Assembly: GCA_035502855.1 (NCBI GenBank)
Contig: DATJTX010000031.1
Span: 186,001-250,000, forward strand
Reading direction: 5' to 3'
DNA: 64,000 nucleotides
Source: Candidatus Baltobacteraceae bacterium
Lineage (GTDB): Bacteria > Vulcanimicrobiota > Vulcanimicrobiia > Vulcanimicrobiales > Vulcanimicrobiaceae
Below the pieces are notes generated by a model that was not told where the DNA came from, ran no database searches, and worked only from the letters and a program-made list of their open reading frames with translations. Each line of letters opens with the position of its first letter. The stretch's first letter is position 1. Of the stretch, positions 16,299 through 24,779 are shown piece after piece. The position numbers and the translations under genes were made by a program.

Positions 16299-16385
16299 AT
16301 GCTGCTCGAGTTAGGGATCATCGCCATCGGAGTCGTCGTGTTCTATATTTTCGATCGCTACGTGGTCGGTTTGGAGGAGCTGTGA
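16299..16385 (+). CDS. 28-residue single-helix membrane peptide inside the kdp operon
   Basis: ATG 16299 follows AGGAG at 7 bases. The peptide is one hydrophobic helix (residues about 4-18) followed by a short acidic tail (YVVGLEEL). Its TGA shares a base with the kdpA ATG, and the kdpA ribosome site (GGAGGAG) is inside its last codons, so translation is likely coupled. It is not a second KdpF by sequence (no LRPEKF). Function unknown; a second small Kdp subunit is an inference from position. Confidence 0.6.
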   Translation: MLLELGIIAIGVVVFYIFDRYVVGLEEL

Positions 16386-18085
16386 TGACCGTCATCGGTT
16401 GGGTCCAAGCGCTCGTCATCCTCGGCCTCGTCCTCCTCTGCGTCAAACCGCTCGGCGCCTACATGGCGCGCGTGTTCGAAGGAGAGCGCACGTTTCTCGC
16501 GCCGGTCCTCGCACCGCTCGAGAAGCTCATCTACCGCATCTGCCGGATCGATCCAAACCAGGAGATGCGGTGGTACACGTACCTCTTTGCCGTCCTCGGA
16601 TTCCACGTGGTCGGTCTGGTGTTTCTCTACGCGCTGCTGCGTACGCAGGCGTGGCTTCCGCTCAACCCGCAAGGCTTCGGCAATCTCGCCCCCGATCTGG
16701 CATGGAACACCGCGGTCAGCTTCCTGACGAATACGAACTGGCAGTTCTACTCCGGCGAGAGCACGATGAGCTACCTCTCGCAGATGATGGGGCTCGCGTG
16801 GCACAACTGGGTCTCGGCAGCGCTCGGGATTTGCCTGGCAATCGCGCTGTTCCGCGGGATCGCGCGAACGACGATCAACACGTTGGGGAACTTCTGGGCC
16901 GACATGACACGCTGTCTGCTTTATGTTTTTCTTCCGATCTGTATCGTGGGTTCGCTGCTTCTCGTGTGGCAAGGCATGCCGCAGAATTTCCATGGATACA
17001 CCAACGTGGTCTCGATCGAAGGCTTCAAGCAGACGATCACGCAAGGCCCGATGGCCTCGCAAGAGTGGATCAAAGACATGGGAACCAACGGCGGCGGATT
17101 CGTGAACGCGAACTCGGCCTCGCCGAACGAGAACCCGACGCCGCTGAGCAATCTCTTCGAACTGTTCTCGATCTTCTTGATCGGCGCGGCGCTGACGTAC
17201 ACGTTCGGCCGCATGGTCAAGGACCAGCGTCAAGGCTGGGCGATCTTGGCGACGATGTCGATCGTCTTCCTCGCCATGTTCGCCGTGTGCTACGCGAGCG
17301 AGGCGGCGGGAAATCCGATCGTGCACAGCCTCGGCGTCGCCGGCGCAAACATGGAAGGCAAAGAGGCGCGCTTCGGTGTCGCGGCCTCGGCGCTCTTTGC
17401 GACGATGACCACGGTGACGTCGTGCGGCGCGGTGAACTCGATGCACGATTCCTTTACCGCGTTGGGCGGTTTGGTCCCGCTGGTCGACATCCAGCTCGGC
17501 GAGATCATCTTCGGCGGCGTCGGCAGCGGCATGTACGGCATGCTGATGATGATCGTGCTGACGGTCTTCATCGCGGGCCTGATGGTCGGGCGCACCCCCG
17601 AGTATCTCGGCAAGAAGATCGAACGCAAGGAAATGCAGCTCGCCATCCTGTTTTTCTTGATCCCGCCGGCCTTCGTGCTGGTGCCGGCCGCGATCGCCGC
17701 GGTTACCCCTGTCGGACTCGCGACACTCAACAACGCCGGGCCGCACGGGTTCTCGGAGATTTTGTACGCGTTCACTTCGATGGTCGGCAACAACGGCAGC
17801 GCGTTCGCCGGCATCGGGCCGAACGTGTTCTATAACCTCGTGGGAAGCGTGGCGATGCTCTTCGGCCGCATCGGCATGTTCATTCCGGCGATCGCGCTCG
17901 CCGGCGCGCTTGCGGGAAAGAAGGCGGTGGCAGCCGGTCCCGGCACCTTCGAAACGCACTCGCCGATCTTTATCGCGCTGTTGATCGGAACGATCGTCAT
18001 CGTCGGCGCGCTCACGTTCTTCCCGGCCGACGCGCTCGGCCCGATCGTCGAACAACTCTACATGCTGCAAGGAAAGACGTTCTAG
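16385..18085 (+). CDS. kdpA: K+-transporting ATPase subunit A
   Basis: Potassium-channel-like subunit of the Kdp high-affinity K+ pump, in the inner membrane. The 566 residues match family length and show repeated selectivity-filter-like segments such as TNTNWQ, GTNGGGF, TSCGAVN and VGNNGSAF. ATG 16385 directly follows a GTG that could also start it. The stop TAG at 18083-18085 touches the left end of an inverted-repeat element that separates it from kdpB. Confidence 0.96.
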   Translation: MTVIGWVQALVILGLVLLCVKPLGAYMARVFEGERTFLAPVLAPLEKLIYRICRIDPNQEMRWYTYLFAVLGFHVVGLVFLYALLRTQAWLPLNPQGFGNLAPDLAWNTAVSFLTNTNWQFYSGESTMSYLSQMMGLAWHNWVSAALGICLAIALFRGIARTTINTLGNFWADMTRCLLYVFLPICIVGSLLLVWQGMPQNFHGYTNVVSIEGFKQTITQGPMASQEWIKDMGTNGGGFVNANSASPNENPTPLSNLFELFSIFLIGAALTYTFGRMVKDQRQGWAILATMSIVFLAMFAVCYASEAAGNPIVHSLGVAGANMEGKEARFGVAASALFATMTTVTSCGAVNSMHDSFTALGGLVPLVDIQLGEIIFGGVGSGMYGMLMMIVLTVFIAGLMVGRTPEYLGKKIERKEMQLAILFFLIPPAFVLVPAAIAAVTPVGLATLNNAGPHGFSEILYAFTSMVGNNGSAFAGIGPNVFYNLVGSVAMLFGRIGMFIPAIALAGALAGKKAVAAGPGTFETHSPIFIALLIGTIVIVGALTFFPADALGPIVEQLYMLQGKTF

Positions 18086-18360
18086 GAGCCTCCAATGATA
18101 TCCACGTATCGATCGTTCGCTTGTGAAGCACCCCGGATGCTAGGCGTCCGCGATGGAGCGTACCCGCAGCGGTCCGTGACTGAGCGGACAACGACGCAGA
18201 CGGAGTGCTTCAAAGCGAACCCTCCGGGCGGGCGCACATTCGCCACATCTCGTCGTCGCTGCGTCAGTCACGATGCACTGCGGCATCGCTCCCTCCTCGC
18301 TTCTCGATCTGCGGCAAATGTGAAGTCCGCGATCGATACGCTGATATCATCGGAGGCTCC
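18085..18360 (+). repeat. 276-bp foldback (MITE-like) element between kdpA and kdpB
   Basis: The two ends form terminal inverted repeats: 18085-18115 and 18330-18360 are complementary at 28 of 31 positions. Inside, 18155-18183 and 18264-18292 (29 bases each) are also largely complementary, sharing GGAGCG, CGCAG and CGTGACTGA. A local hairpin pairs 18116-18131 with 18205-18219. No open reading frame of note is present. The right arm carries the GGAGG ribosome site of kdpB, and the left arm carries its complement CCTCC, so in the mRNA the element could hide that site. Probably an inserted foldback element, or a large RNA regulatory structure. Confidence 0.75.
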
Positions 18361-18364
18361 TTAA

Positions 18365-20413
18365 GTGCTTTCGCAACGGCGGCTCGAGCGTCGGCCCAAA
18401 GCACGCTCGCTCTTCGATCGGGAGATTCTCGGCCGAGCGGTCATCGACTCGTTCAAGAAGCTGGATCCTCGCTGGCAAGCCCGCAATCCGGTGATGTTCG
18501 TGTGCGAGGTCGGTGCGCTGGCGACGCTCGTCTTCTTCGTGCGCGACCTCATCCACCACGGTCCGGCCGGATTCGACTTTGCGATCTCGATCTGGCTCTG
18601 GTTCACGGTGCTCTTTGCCAACTTGGCCGAAGCCGTGGCCGAAGGCCGCGGCAAAGCGCAAGCGGACGCGCTCCGCAAAACACGTACGCAGACGCTGGCG
18701 AAACTCGTCGTGGGCGATGGGGTCGAGACGGTCCCCTCGAGCAGCTTGCGCAAGGGCGACGTCGTCCGCGTTGCAACCGGCGAGCTGATTCCCGGCGACG
18801 GCGACGTCATTTCGGGCGCGGCGATGGTCGACGAATCGGCGATCACCGGCGAGTCGGCGCCGGTCGTTCGGGAGGCCGGCGGCGACCGCAGCGCGGTCAC
18901 CGGCGGCACGCGCGTGATCTCGGATCAGGTCGACGTGCGCATCACCGCAAACCCGGGCGAAACGTTCCTCGACCGCATGATCGGGTTGGTCGAAGGTGCG
19001 AAACGCCAGAAGACGCCGAACGAGATCGCGCTCTCGATCCTGCTCGCGGGATTGACGATCATCTTCCTGTTCGCGGTCGCGACGCTCTCGCCGTTCTCCG
19101 TATACGCGGGTGCGCATCAATCGGTCACGGTGTTGATCGCATTGCTCGTCTGTCTCATTCCAACCACGATCGGCGGACTGCTGTCCGCGATCGGCATCGC
19201 GGGCATGGACCGCGTCATGCAGCGCAACGTGCTGGCCATGAGCGGACGCGCGGTCGAAGCCGCGGGTGACGTCGACACGCTGCTCCTGGATAAGACCGGA
19301 ACGATCACCCTCGGAAACCGCCAGGCGACCGAAGTCATCAGCGTCGACGGAACCGTTCCGGCCGACGCGATGCGCGTTGCGTACCTCACCTCGCTGCCCG
19401 ACGAGACGCCGGAAGGCCGCTCGATCGTGACGCTGGCGCAAGCCAACGGCATCACGGATTCCGAACCCGACGGCGCGACGTTCATTCCGTTCAGCGCGTA
19501 CACGCGCATGAGCGGGATCGATCTTCCGGATGGAACGATGCTGCGCAAAGGAGCACCGGATGCGGTTACGGCCTGGGTACGCGATCAGGGAGGCAAACCG
19601 GTCGACGGCCTCGCGCCGCAGGTCGAGCGCATCGCACGCGCCGGCGGCACGCCGCTCTTGGTTGCCCGCAACGCGCAGATCCTAGGCGTGATCTATCTCA
19701 AGGACATCCTCAAGCCGAACATGCGCGACCGGTTCGATCGCTTGCGCGCGATGGGCATTCGCACGGTGATGATCACCGGTGATAATCCGCTCACCGCGGC
19801 GGCGATCGCCGGCGAGGCGGGCGTCGACGATTTCCTCGCCGAGGCCACGCCCGAGACGAAGATGGACCTGATCAAGCGCGAGCAGGGCTCGGGTCGACTG
19901 GTCGCGATGACGGGCGACGGCACCAACGACGCACCGGCGCTTGCGCAAGCCGACGTCGGCGTCGCGATGAATACCGGCACGCAGGCTGCCAAAGAGGCGG
20001 CGAACATGGTCGACCTCGATTCCGACCCCACCAAGTTGATCGAAGTCGTCGAGATCGGCAAGCAGCTCCTGATGACGCGCGGCGCGCTCACGACGTTCTC
20101 GATCGCCAACGATGTCGCGAAGTACTTCGCGATTCTACCGGCGATGTTCGCGACGGCGTATCCGGTGATGAACGAACTCAACGTCATGCGCCTGACCACA
20201 CCCCAGAGCGCGATTCTCTCCGCCGTCATCTTCAACGCGCTGATCATCGTCGCGCTGATTCCGCTCGCGCTGCGCGGCGTCACGTATCGTCCGCTCGGCG
20301 CCAACGCCGTGCTGCGGACCAACGTCCTCCTGTACGGCGTCGGCGGGATCATCGTGCCGTTCATCGGGATCAAGCTGGTCGACATGATCCTCGCCGCTCT
20401 GCACTTAACATGA
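18365..20413 (+). CDS. kdpB: K+-transporting ATPase subunit B (P-type ATPase)
   Basis: Catalytic subunit of KdpFABC. The 682 residues include the phosphorylation motif DKTGTIT (Asp near residue 309), the TGES actuator loop, the [10 protein letters not shown] hinge and the expected membrane helices. GTG 18365 is 9 bases after GGAGG, which belongs to the right arm of the foldback element. Only kdpC follows downstream on this strand. Confidence 0.97.
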
Positions 20414-20422
20414 GGTGACCCC

Positions 20423-21022
20423 GTGGCAAACGTACAGCAAATCAAAGACAACACGCTCAAGCACATCGGTACCTCGGTGCTCTTCACGATCGTTACGGTG
20501 ATCGCGTTCGGCTTGATCTATCCGATCGTGTTCACGGGAATCGCGCAAGTGCTCTTTCCGTGGCAGGCGAACGGCGAGCTCGTCATGCGTGACGGAAAGC
20601 CGGTCGGATCGGCGATCATCGGACAGCTCTGGACGAAGCCGCAGTATTTTCAGGGCCGGCCGTCGGCTGCCGGCAAAGGGTACGATCCGACGCAGACCGG
20701 CGGAACGAACCTGGGTCCGACCTCGAAGAAACTGATCGACGCGACCAAAGCTACGATTGCCGCGCTGAAGAAGGCGAATCCCGACGCGACGATTCCGATT
20801 CCAATGGACCTGGTCACGTCGAGCGCCAGCGGCGTCGATCCCGACATCAGCCCGGCGGGAGCGTATTATCAAGCACCGCGGGTCGCCAAGGCGCGCGGCC
20901 TGCCGGTTGCAACGGTGAACGCCTTGATCGCAAAGGTGATCCAGCCGCGCACCTTCGGATTTCTCGGCGACCCGCGCGTCAACGTCTTACAGTTGAATCT
21001 CGCGCTGGACAACCTTCACTAG
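20423..21022 (+). CDS. kdpC: K+-transporting ATPase subunit C
   Basis: Single-span subunit that caps the Kdp complex. 199 residues with an N-terminal membrane helix (about 17-40), the LPWQANGEL-type stretch (here FPWQANGEL), the QYFQGRPSA motif and the SASGVDPDISPAGA block. GTG start preceded by TGAGGTGA. Three bases separate its stop from the convergent KdpD-like gene. Confidence 0.95.
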   Translation: MANVQQIKDNTLKHIGTSVLFTIVTVIAFGLIYPIVFTGIAQVLFPWQANGELVMRDGKPVGSAIIGQLWTKPQYFQGRPSAAGKGYDPTQTGGTNLGPTSKKLIDATKATIAALKKANPDATIPIPMDLVTSSASGVDPDISPAGAYYQAPRVAKARGLPVATVNALIAKVIQPRTFGFLGDPRVNVLQLNLALDNLH

Positions 21023-21025
21023 CGC

Positions 21026-23185
21026 CTACGCTTCGGACTGCGGGGCGTTTTCGGCGGGCGGCTTCGGGCGTGCCAGCACGAGAAGCTCGCGCGCCCCTGC
21101 GTCCAGCAGCCGGCGTGCAAACGAATTGCGTGCCGGCCAGCGCGGCGTCCGATGCGTACCGCCGACCGCGATGTCGGTCTGCGGACGGGAACGCGCGATC
21201 GCAAGCAATCGGGTTGCGGCGTCGTCGACGCCGCGCTCGTCGATCCAATCGACGTTGAGTACGCGGGTGGCGCGCTCGAATTCGGTCAGAACCGCCTCAT
21301 TGACGTGCTCGCGGCGTTCCGCGACGTGCGCGACCGCGAAGTCGACCTCGAGGCGCACGGCCATCCGCGATGCCTTGCGAACGAGCAAGAGATCCTCACG
21401 CCGGCCGACGATCGAGAGTAAGATCCGATTGAAGGGTGCGGCAATGCGTTCGCGCATCTCGGCGCGCAGCACCTCCCGAATCGCGAGTTCGCGCAGTGCG
21501 GCCAAGTTTTCGGTCCGGAAGAAGTTCGCGAGCGCCGGCTCGATTCGTTCGGGCGGGTAGATCTTCCCCGCGCGCAACCGTTCGCGGAGCGTCTCCGGTG
21601 AGACGTCGATTAAGATCACTTCGTCGGCGAGCGGAAGGATGCCGTCCGGCAACGTCTCGCGCACGATCGTTCCGGTGAGCCGGTACACCGCGTCGCTGAG
21701 CGCTTCGAGGTGCTGGATGTTCAGCGTCGTGATTACGTCGATGCCGGCACGCATGAAGGCGAGCACGTCGAGAAATCGCTTCGGCGCCAGCGATCCCGGC
21801 GCGTTGGTATGGGCGAGCTCGTCGACGAGAACGACGCGCGGTTTCCGCGCGAGTATGGCCTCTCGATCCATCTCGGTATAGGTGATGCCGTCGGCCACGA
21901 TGGTCTTGCGCGCGACGATCGGCAGATCGCCGATCATCGCTTCGGTTTCGGCGCGTTTGTGCGTTTCGACGAACCCGATGACGACGTCGACCCCCTCGGC
22001 GCGCAGTTGATGACCGCGGTCGAGCATTGCGTACGTCTTACCGGCGCCCGCTGCCGCGCCCAGATAGACGGTGAGCTTGCCGTATCCCACCCGCATCCGG
22101 TCGCCGAGCGTGCCCGAGAGCGGCGTGGTTAGCGTTGTCTGCTCGATGTAGGATTGCTCGACGTCGAGGATCGCGATATCGCGTTCGACCGGCGCGTTGA
22201 CCAGACGCATGGCGAGCTTGCCGCGCGGCAGAATCAAGAGCGACGCGCGTAATGCGTTGAAGTCGATGCTCTCCGGTTCCTGGGGTGGTAGCAGTTCCGC
22301 GTTGTGCGTCGTCGCAACACGCGTCAACTCGGTCTGATCGCAGCCGGGCGCCGGGAGGATTTCGAGCGTCAGATCGAGTGCGGCCGCGATCGGAGCGCAG
22401 CGCTGCACGAACACGGCGCAATCGACGCCGTCGGGGACGATCGTAATCGCGGCGGACGCGATCGCGGCCGAGACGGTGGGGATCGTCAGTTCGTCGATCG
22501 TTCGAAGCAGCAGCTCCCGCAGCATCGCGAGCGTCGATTCTTTGTAGAGGCCGGCCTCTGCCCGTCCGATGTCGCCGTCGCGAACGATCTTCCCGCTCTG
22601 CAGCCGTTCGCGCAGGATCTCCGGCGAAGCGTCGAGTGCGATCACTTCGTCGGCGCCTTTGAGAAACGAGAGTGGCACGATCTCGCGAATCGGATAGCCG
22701 ATCAGACGCTCTGCGGTGGTCGAAACCGTTTCGAGATGCGCGATGTTGAACGCGCCGAGCACGGTGATGCCCGCCTTCTGCAACTCGAGGGCGTCTTGCC
22801 AGCGTTTGCCGTTGCGGGATTCGCCGAGGTTATCGTGCGCGAGTTCGTCCATGATGATGACGTCGGGGTGGGCGCTGAGCGCGGCATCCAAATCGAACTC
22901 CGGGTAATGGTTCGAGCCGATCACGACGTCGCGCGGCGCGATCCGCGGCAATCCCTCCGCCAGTCGCTCGAGATCGGGCCGTTCCTTGGTTTCGATCCAG
23001 CCGATCGCCACGCGTTTCCCGGCGCTTTGCAGTCGCCGTGCGTCCGTCAGCAGACGGCGCGTCTTGCCCGCGCCGGGCGCCGCCGCGACGTAGACGACGA
23101 GCCGTGCCTTCTCACCGAACTCGCGTAGCAGCTGCTCTGCCGACCGGCGCCGTGCAGCTTCTCGTTCGTCCGCCGTTCGATCCAT
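21026..23185 (-). CDS. Double KdpD-type sensor protein without a kinase
   Basis: 719 residues containing two copies of the KdpD N-terminal K+/turgor-sensing module. The first P-loop AAPGAGKT is near residue 36 and the second, GAAAGAGKT, near residue 375. Each copy has the MDELAH/VDELAH Walker B and a following SPE-LRERL stretch, then a universal-stress-protein-like region (degenerate in copy one, clearer in copy two). There are no membrane helices, HisKA or HATPase. It is thus the sensing half of KdpD, duplicated. ATG 23185 was chosen; a GTG at 23251 would overlap the divergent kinase gene. Convergent with kdpC. Confidence 0.85.
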   Translation of the reverse strand: MDRTADEREAARRRSAEQLLREFGEKARLVVYVAAAPGAGKTRRLLTDARRLQSAGKRVAIGWIETKERPDLERLAEGLPRIAPRDVVIGSNHYPEFDLDAALSAHPDVIIMDELAHDNLGESRNGKRWQDALELQKAGITVLGAFNIAHLETVSTTAERLIGYPIREIVPLSFLKGADEVIALDASPEILRERLQSGKIVRDGDIGRAEAGLYKESTLAMLRELLLRTIDELTIPTVSAAIASAAITIVPDGVDCAVFVQRCAPIAAALDLTLEILPAPGCDQTELTRVATTHNAELLPPQEPESIDFNALRASLLILPRGKLAMRLVNAPVERDIAILDVEQSYIEQTTLTTPLSGTLGDRMRVGYGKLTVYLGAAAGAGKTYAMLDRGHQLRAEGVDVVIGFVETHKRAETEAMIGDLPIVARKTIVADGITYTEMDREAILARKPRVVLVDELAHTNAPGSLAPKRFLDVLAFMRAGIDVITTLNIQHLEALSDAVYRLTGTIVRETLPDGILPLADEVILIDVSPETLRERLRAGKIYPPERIEPALANFFRTENLAALRELAIREVLRAEMRERIAAPFNRILLSIVGRREDLLLVRKASRMAVRLEVDFAVAHVAERREHVNEAVLTEFERATRVLNVDWIDERGVDDAATRLLAIARSRPQTDIAVGGTHRTPRWPARNSFARRLLDAGARELLVLARPKPPAENAPQSEA

Positions 23186-23243
23186 GGAGCGAGCCGGTTC
23201 GGCAAAATGAACGGCGTCCCCGCTCCGCGAAACGCATGAGTGA

Positions 23244-24779
23244 ATGGCCACTCTCTGCTACGCGCTTTTGGCAATTGCGTGGGCCGTCGATCTGGTAACA
23301 CCGCAGCTTTTTGTCGCAGCGATACTGCTCAACGGGCCGATCGCGCTGTCGGCGCTTGCGCTGCGGCCTTCGTTGACCGTTCGGTTGGTCGTGCTGGCGG
23401 AAATTGCGAACGTCGTGGCAGGTTACGTCAATGGGCTCGCTGATGGCGGACATTGGGAGACGATCGCAGTCGCCGATCGCGTGCTCGCCGCGGCGAGCTT
23501 TTTGCTGGTCGGGGCGTTGACGTTGCGGGCCCAGCTAAACGCGCGGCGCGCCGGCGAAGGCGCCGAGCGGGAACGGCAAATTCAACGCGAGCGCGCGTTG
23601 CGCCGCGCGATGGAACAGGTTCGCGCGAGCCTGAACATGGAGATCGTCATGCGCAATGCGGTGCGCGAGGCGCAGCGCATCACCGCAGCGCCGCGCGTGC
23701 TGCTCCTGATCCGCGCCACCTCGCTGGACGTGCCCGATTCGTACGAGTACGCCTCCGAGGGCGAGGTAACGCTCAAACGCGAACCGCTTGCGCCCGAGAT
23801 CACATCGGTCGTCGAGAGCGCTCGCGCACGCGGCGGCGTCTTGACGGTCGGGGCGAACGACCCGCTCGCAAGCATGCTCGGCGAAGCGGTTTCGGCGGCA
23901 GCGATCGAGCTGGACACCGGCACGGTTGCGCTGATCATCGGCTGGGGCGCACGCACGCCGACGCCCGAGGAACAAGACGCCGTTCGAGATTTCGTGGACA
24001 ATCTCGCAATTGCGCTGCAACAAGCTCGTCTCTTTATTCGCTTGGCCGAACAGAACGAGGAGATACGCCGAGGGCGCACCGAGCTGCAGAACCGCAGCGA
24101 GGTGATTCGCGACATCGTCTATGCGCTCGCGCACGACCTGCGTACGCCGCTCGTCGCCGCGGATGTAACGATGAATCAAGCGCTCGAAGGCGCATACGGC
24201 GAATTGCCGGAGCGGTATCGGCACATTCTGCAAACGACGCGCGAATCGACCGCGAACCTGCGCCGTTTGGTCGACACGCTGCTGCTGGTCGCGCGTTATG
24301 AGGCGGGTGAAGATTCGCGCCGGTTTCGACGCGAAGAAATTGCGCCGTTGCTCGAACGCGTGGCCGGCGAATTGCAGCCGGTGGCCGCCGCCAAAGGCGT
24401 GCGGCTCACCGTCGCGCCCGTCGACGCGGAGCTCGTGATCGAAGCGGACGAGGACGAGATACGCCGCGCGCTCACGAACCTGGTCGCCAACGCGATCGAG
24501 GCAACGCCGGCAAACGGGAGCGTCGGCGTCGAAACGTTTGTCAATGACGGGCGCCTGACCGTAAGCGTCGTCGACGATGGTTACGGCGTAGCCCCCGAAC
24601 GGCGCGCAGCGTTGTTCCAGCGCTTCGGCGGGGTGCGCGCCGGCGGAGGAACGGGCTTGGGACTCTATATCGTGCGCCGCATCGCGGAAAAGTACCAAGG
24701 CCATGCGACCTACGAACCGCGCGAGCCGCGCGGCAGCCGGTTTTCGATCGAACTCCCGCTCGACGGTGCGCGAGCGTGA
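23244..24779 (+). CDS. Membrane sensor histidine kinase (KdpD C-half-like)
   Basis: 511 residues: three or four hydrophobic helices (residues about 3-92), a GAF-like domain (about 130-265), then HisKA with the phospho-acceptor His in ALAHDLRTPL (near residue 295) and a HATPase with NLVANAIEA, DDGYGV and GTGLGLYIV. Order (membrane-GAF-HisKA-HATPase) is that of the C-terminal half of KdpD, while the N-terminal half is encoded divergently at 21026-23185. It overlaps the response regulator gene by GTGA. Confidence 0.88.
   Translation: MATLCYALLAIAWAVDLVTPQLFVAAILLNGPIALSALALRPSLTVRLVVLAEIANVVAGYVNGLADGGHWETIAVADRVLAAASFLLVGALTLRAQLNARRAGEGAERERQIQRERALRRAMEQVRASLNMEIVMRNAVREAQRITAAPRVLLLIRATSLDVPDSYEYASEGEVTLKREPLAPEITSVVESARARGGVLTVGANDPLASMLGEAVSAAAIELDTGTVALIIGWGARTPTPEEQDAVRDFVDNLAIALQQARLFIRLAEQNEEIRRGRTELQNRSEVIRDIVYALAHDLRTPLVAADVTMNQALEGAYGELPERYRHILQTTRESTANLRRLVDTLLLVARYEAGEDSRRFRREEIAPLLERVAGELQPVAAAKGVRLTVAPVDAELVIEADEDEIRRALTNLVANAIEATPANGSVGVETFVNDGRLTVSVVDDGYGVAPERRAALFQRFGGVRAGGGTGLGLYIVRRIAEKYQGHATYEPREPRGSRFSIELPLDGARA

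Follow-up and report, generated by a model that had tools for sequence, protein, structure and literature searches.

A MITE-like foldback element at the kdpA stop codon of a Candidatus Baltobacteraceae genome carries an inner hairpin that recurs in records of many phyla

In the 64,000-nucleotide stretch of DNA analysed here (the window), kdpA and kdpB are separated by a foldback sequence, and the best explanation of the locus as a whole, which we hold to be very likely, is a MITE-like insertion, through which translation of kdpB may have become dependent on translation of kdpA. We identify the sequence with high confidence as a non-autonomous, MITE-like foldback element and, judging from the flanking letters, hold just as firmly that it reached kdp by TA-targeted insertion (TTC-TA, element, TA-AGTG). 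Within a dispersed family, the kdp copy is taken to be an older, divergent member. All of kdpA, kdpB and kdpC are intact in the window, with clear Pfam matches (Table 1).

Table 1. Features of the kdp locus and of the element lying within it (window positions).
Feature	Position	Strand	Basis or remark
kdpA	16382..18085	+	Pfam KdpA, E 2e-234
AAGGA near kdpA 3' end	18069..18073	+	probably ancestral kdpB SD; role inferred
TA target duplication, left copy	18083..18084	+	flanks compared with kdpA-kdpB junctions of 18 relatives
Left terminal inverted repeat	18084..18115	+	contains CCTCC 18089-18093 and AGGAG 18084-18088
Foldback element, 277 bp	18085..18361	.	arms, fold, flank comparison, homologous copies elsewhere
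89-codon open frame	18095..18364	+	in frame with kdpA; not a gene, may serve as bridging frame
Left inner arm, self-complementary hairpin	18115..18220	+	fold and alignment; inverted relative of right arm
Right inner arm, self-complementary hairpin, holds conserved core	18228..18330	+	model R1, 95.6 bits
Inner-hairpin core CGTCAGTCAC-[GATGC..GCATC]-GCTCCCTCCTCGCTTC	18262..18303	+	alignments, covariation
Core tip stem	18271-18276 paired with 18283-18288		
Right terminal inverted repeat	18330..18361	+	contains GGAGG 18352-18356
SD-like GGAGG, kdpB's only one	18352..18356	+	right arm; 8 nt before GTG 18365
TA duplication, right copy	18362..18363	+	with A18364, former kdpA stop TAA abutting kdpB start
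kdpB	18365..20413, GTG start	+	Pfam E1-E2_ATPase and Hydrolase domains; MLSQRRL-type start as in relatives
kdpC	20423-21022		Pfam match

The earlier note on this DNA held that kdpA and kdpB are normally nearly adjacent and proposed a search of relatives for an empty site. Both points agree with what we found, the two genes being close or overlapping, and free of the element, in every one of the 18 relatives whose junction could be read (for example TTC TAATG and TTC TAG ATG). The flanks in the window read GTTC-TA on the left and TA-AGTG-CTTTCGCAACGG on the right, and their comparison with the relatives supports a TA target duplication, another of the proposed checks. In the simplest history suggested by these sequences, an ancestral GTTCTAAGTG took up the element at the TA within its TAA stop, with duplication of that TA; the element would have inserted while kdpA and kdpB adjoined, and the old TAA would have been left directly beside the GTG of kdpB. 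Because the element begins with a G (G18085), the kdpA stop is remade as TAG and KdpA is unchanged, and the element together with one copy of the TA amounts to 279 bp, or 93 codons, making the insert a multiple of three. Related copies have the canonical ends TA/GGGAGCC...GGCTCCC/TA; those of the kdp copy are worn (one G missing on the left, C to T on the right), and for this reason the duplication at kdp is read from relatives and not from an identical empty strain.

The foldback described in the earlier note was borne out at the level of predicted structure. The terminal arms (32 nt each) are 91% complementary, and the RNA fold of 18060-18390 reaches -158.6 kcal/mol compared to -121.5 ± 5.4 kcal/mol for shuffled sequences (z = -6.9; 0 of 100 shuffles equally stable). 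The predicted fold comprises a base stem and two self-complementary inner arms with a small hairpin in between. The statement that there is no ORF is not literally true, as an 89-codon frame running from ATG 18095 to TAA 18362-18364 spans the element. Its codon score of -0.31, against 0.42-0.48 in kdpA and kdpB, reflects non-coding usage, and an open frame of this length arises by chance in about 13% of cases; on these grounds the frame was rejected as a coding gene and kept only as a possible path for ribosomes. No terminator-like site was found inside the element.

The native SD of kdpB is probably the AAGGA inside kdpA, judging by its sequence and by the close spacing of the two genes in relatives, and it now lies about 290 nt from kdpB. 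The only SD-like site of kdpB at present, as stated in the earlier note, is the GGAGG in the right arm; in the mRNA this substitute would be buried by pairing with the CCTCC in the left arm, and RNA folding, also proposed as a check, did bury it. The computed cost of opening the site on a naked strand is 33.6 kcal/mol, the highest of the 11 genes measured (25.3 kcal/mol or less in the ten others), and 12.9 kcal/mol with a ribosome footprint placed at the kdpA stop. A ribosome at this stop would melt the base of the stem and allow kdpB to be translated. As an alternative route, translation may restart at ATG 18095, which sits with the AGGAG at the kdpA stop, and read the 89-codon frame through the hairpin; since the frame ends at the TAA beside kdpB, ribosomes that restart there could open up the hairpin as well. 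By either route kdpB would depend on translation of kdpA, probably at reduced efficiency, and processing of the long stem by RNase III is possible. On these models, dependence of kdpB translation on kdpA, or a reduction of it, is a tentative reading that we consider a real possibility. It had been suggested that the hairpin could lower kdpB translation or act as a switch: masking of the SD was upheld in the computed fold, with the caveat that a ribosome terminating on kdpA brings the opening cost into the range of the other genes, and the switch was not, Rfam giving nothing.

The element could also be a neutral passenger whose hairpin is passed or melted by ribosomes, with kdpB expressed as before from the SD in the right arm. 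The intact kdp genes, the good spacing of that SD, the in-frame bridging frame and an opening cost in the normal range once a ribosome occupies the kdpA stop would all fit such a reading, but without translation of kdpA none of the 11 sites measured is more strongly masked than that of kdpB, and we consider the reading plausible though somewhat improbable. By analogy with the NEMIS elements of Neisseria, for which RNase III cutting has been proposed (PMC2229807), the stem may instead be cut so that the kdpA and kdpBC messages are separated and their stability is altered. The terminal stem, about 30 bp long and near-perfect, would suit the enzyme; it has bulges, however, and translation of kdpA would compete with its formation, which leaves this reading doubtful. 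Under the preferred explanation, a MITE-like insertion with translation-dependent kdpB, the local case illustrates how an operon can keep working though a foldback element has landed between once-adjacent genes: the stop of the first gene is restored by the element, which also brings a ribosome site and keeps a path open, in frame, to the start of the second.

Further copies, which the earlier note had proposed to look for, were found both by DNA search and by a structure model. In the DNA search, which covered 60 relatives, homologous copies with partly different ends were detected at other loci of the host genome and in seven further genomes. The structure model of the right arm (R1), with which a two-arm copy may count twice, matched 33 places in the host genome and 41 of 98 genomes, at up to 41 places per genome. 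R1 matches were almost confined to the host's own family and its sister family; the other family searched in the class gave none, and a single weak match lay elsewhere in the phylum. A young subfamily with ends GGGAAGCTCTGAAGAAGTC occupies about 20 insertion points in the host genome; its copies are nearly identical, many lie at contig ends, and most are flanked by TA within CTAG. Eight assembly contigs (C7, C18, C20, C21, C23, C27, C28 and C34) end about 135-155 bp inside young copies, which points to the repeat as a main cause of assembly breaks. One orthologous locus has a full copy in the sister species and a short remnant in the host genome, indicating that copies are gained or lost. The outcome named beforehand as contrary to a mobile element, namely no other copies or a spacer conserved in distant relatives, was looked for and did not occur.

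Target duplication and placement at gene ends were also seen away from kdp. A 3-bp TWA duplication, lying within CTWAG, flanks 29 copies in one other MAG. Among 62 gene ends facing the element at 47 copies, 36 have the stop codon exactly at the junction, a gene end being counted where the best coding frame ran toward the element under a crude codon model trained on genes of the window. The stop would be remade by the duplicated TA and the G of the element, or by the TAA of the TWA duplication, and these junctions can be explained by target choice together with selection against insertions in coding sequence. At one locus (L087; G000:C11, near 32433) a 29-bp remnant is made up of two fused end repeats (GGGAAGCTCTGAAGAAGTCAGAGCTTCCC) with TA on both sides and adjoins an IS630-type end (GAGACACTACACTA), consistent with insertion into a transposon end and then near-complete internal deletion. 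In G024, short copies lacking the left arm (L044, L047, L049 and L050) occur alongside full copies with both arms, as would be expected if the interior were deleted step by step or if the element existed in two forms.

Compared to known repeats, the element has the properties of a MITE in the general sense: it is short, has terminal inverted repeats and no transposase gene, and occurs as dispersed copies with target-site duplications (TA at kdp by comparison, TWA in the 29 copies mentioned above). No long element with these ends was found, so that the end repeats are not seen to be shared with an autonomous transposon, and the element is for this reason called MITE-like only. RUP of Streptococcus pneumoniae, NEMIS/Correia of Neisseria, ERIC of enterobacteria and Nezha of cyanobacteria are likewise short and gene-free with terminal inverted repeats; they too are intergenic, are transcribed with their neighbours into strong RNA folds and can affect the flanking mRNA (PMC2229807; PMC3733652), and RUP also targets TA.

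The CGTC-tagged REPs (Di Nocera 2013, PMC3733652) share with the present hairpin the CGTC motif, a palindromic dispersed form, occurrence in several phyla and location at gene ends, and they have no known dedicated transposase. REPs measure 20-40 bp, and those tagged with CGTC have an 8-9-bp stem directly after the CGTC and a CCA-like tail (PMC3733652). In the hairpin described here, by contrast, CGTC and the start of the stem are several bases apart, GCTCCCTCCTCGC forms the 3' side, and the hairpin as a whole lies within an element of 160-280 bp that has end repeats and a target duplication; set against that published description, our core alignment (A2) falls outside the CGTC-tagged class. 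The REP/RAYT definition does not apply either, the core having no GTAG tag and a Y1_Tnp match being absent from four of five carrier genomes, the host included. CIR, found in Caulobacter and other alphaproteobacteria, likewise has two long inverted-repeat arms and a linker, and its mobility mechanism is unclear (PMC2229807). Compared by description only, CIR has a conserved GANTC at the loop and is about 110 bp long, unlike the present element, which has terminal inverted repeats and a target duplication and whose conserved flanks are GGTCAC/GCTCCC. In Streptococcus pneumoniae, 36 of 58 CDSs that overlap a BOX element take their stop codon from it (PMC3049150). BOX elements are dispersed repeats that provide the stop of the gene before them, as here. 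The sequence and modular design of BOX are, to our knowledge, unrelated to those of the present element. No description of this repeat was found in the open-access papers searched, the coverage of which is incomplete. Being outside the CGTC-REP definition and without the autonomous partner of a MITE, the element is described as MITE-like, a new variant.

The family is more surprising than the local case, in that it has one inner hairpin with strictly conserved flanks and with pairing kept by compensatory changes. The exact core pattern CGTCGGTCACAN{8,20}TGCTCCCTCCTCGC, scanned against 84,980 species genomes, matched at least 119 stretches. The matches listed include records labelled Acidobacteria/Vicinamibacterales, Acidimicrobiia/Actinomycetota, Verrucomicrobia, Elusimicrobia, Myxococcales/Deltaproteobacteria, Sphingomonadales, Bacteroidetes and Eremiobacterota, the labels being those of the MAG records and repeats being prone to misbinning. 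One MAG that has dozens of copies may carry the Acidimicrobiia label in error, as some proteins encoded next to the copies look acidobacterial to us. The elements come in two recurring sizes, about 160 bp with one arm and about 275 bp with two. Over 57 distinct cores, the covariation score of the tip and outer stem was 0.516, against 0.133 ± 0.019 in shuffles and 0.112 or less with slid partners, and double-change cells numbered 110 versus 34. Paired tip positions amounted to 3.1 compared to 1.35 with shuffled arms (65 distinct tips). As the pattern fixed only the flanks, the search did not force any pairing inside the gap, apart from the A-T pair at the base of the tip. At the second tip pair (A2 columns 28/46), 13 of the 57 cores have a G.A apposition and the others a Watson-Crick pair, and this recurrent G.A could be the sign of a particular non-canonical pair in a folded strand.

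The inner hairpin recurs in these records within elements of differing ends. Terminal repeats fell into 45 groups, 12 of them with at least two members, under a crude grouping that over-splits by register, and the two ends match within each copy. Ordinary MITE families have conserved ends and variable insides, the reverse of the present family, in which the inside is conserved across phyla, the ends vary and no related autonomous element was found. Six copies in Vicinamibacterales and Acidobacteria records (L108, L132, L158, L168, L169 and L182) have the core followed by a one-sided end like CAGCRACCTGCTAG and no matching left end; they are possibly one-ended remnants or have a different organisation.

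No transposase with matching ends was found, and pattern searches with the end repeats for an autonomous partner returned short copies only. The host genome has neither DDE_Tnp_1 nor Y1 enzymes. It carries two IS630 copies whose ends (TAGTGTAGTGTC) are unlike those of the kdp type (GGGAAGCTCTGAAGAAGTC); a few other copies of the element share only TAGTGT with the IS630 ends, and the TA target fits the IS630 type. Neither IS630-type nor DDE_Tnp_1 enzymes, the two transposase families tested there, were detected in G028, a genome 98% complete with 39 matches, and G024 has none of DDE_Tnp_1, Y1 and IS630. Clustering of ORFs near 142 core-bearing loci revealed no recurring transposase by eye; the clusters were made up of spurious frames that overlie the element and of genes related to one another within single MAGs. 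Carriage by phages or plasmids was rejected, the exact core pattern being absent from 2.9 million viral contigs and PLSDB giving no match to the one Sphingomonadales copy used as query.

That the family was moved through its conserved inner hairpin as a folded single strand, with the end repeats free to vary rather than driving the movement, would account for one conserved core amid many unrelated but matched end-repeat types, for covarying inner and outer stems and for a nearly complete genome with many matches and neither enzyme. The TA and TWA duplications, however, are typical of a DDE transposase, no candidate enzyme was found and MAGs may miss a transposase gene, and we judge this mode of movement unlikely. 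A wider proposal, similarly conjectural and improbable, is a cross-phylum class of mobile foldback elements recognised by an internal hairpin, CGTTGCTCGTCGGTCAC-[stem]-GCTCCCTCCTCGCGCC, between covarying stems, with interchangeable ends and an enzyme that would act on the folded strand; the G after the TA would permit harmless landing in stop codons, and kdpB would be translation-dependent.

A native kdp regulatory RNA evolved in place, be it a riboswitch, an attenuator or a stoichiometry switch, would fit the strong, stable fold over the kdpB ribosome site and the position between kdpA and kdpB, but it is absent from the kdp loci of the relatives examined, copies occur at unrelated loci and there is no Rfam match or terminator-like site, so that this highly improbable reading is already largely refuted by the dispersed copies and the empty kdp sites. 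A native kdp spacer was likewise rejected on the element-free junctions of the relatives examined, and a riboswitch or other known RNA on the lack of any match at gathering score in an Rfam 15 search of the element.

Downstream of the operon, positions 21026-23251 (- strand) encode a 741-aa protein in which the KdpD sensor domain occurs twice in tandem (two stretches matching PF02702) and which has no kinase match, and a separate histidine kinase (23244-24779, on the opposite strand) adjoins it. The usual KdpD thus appears to be split here, with its sensor duplicated.
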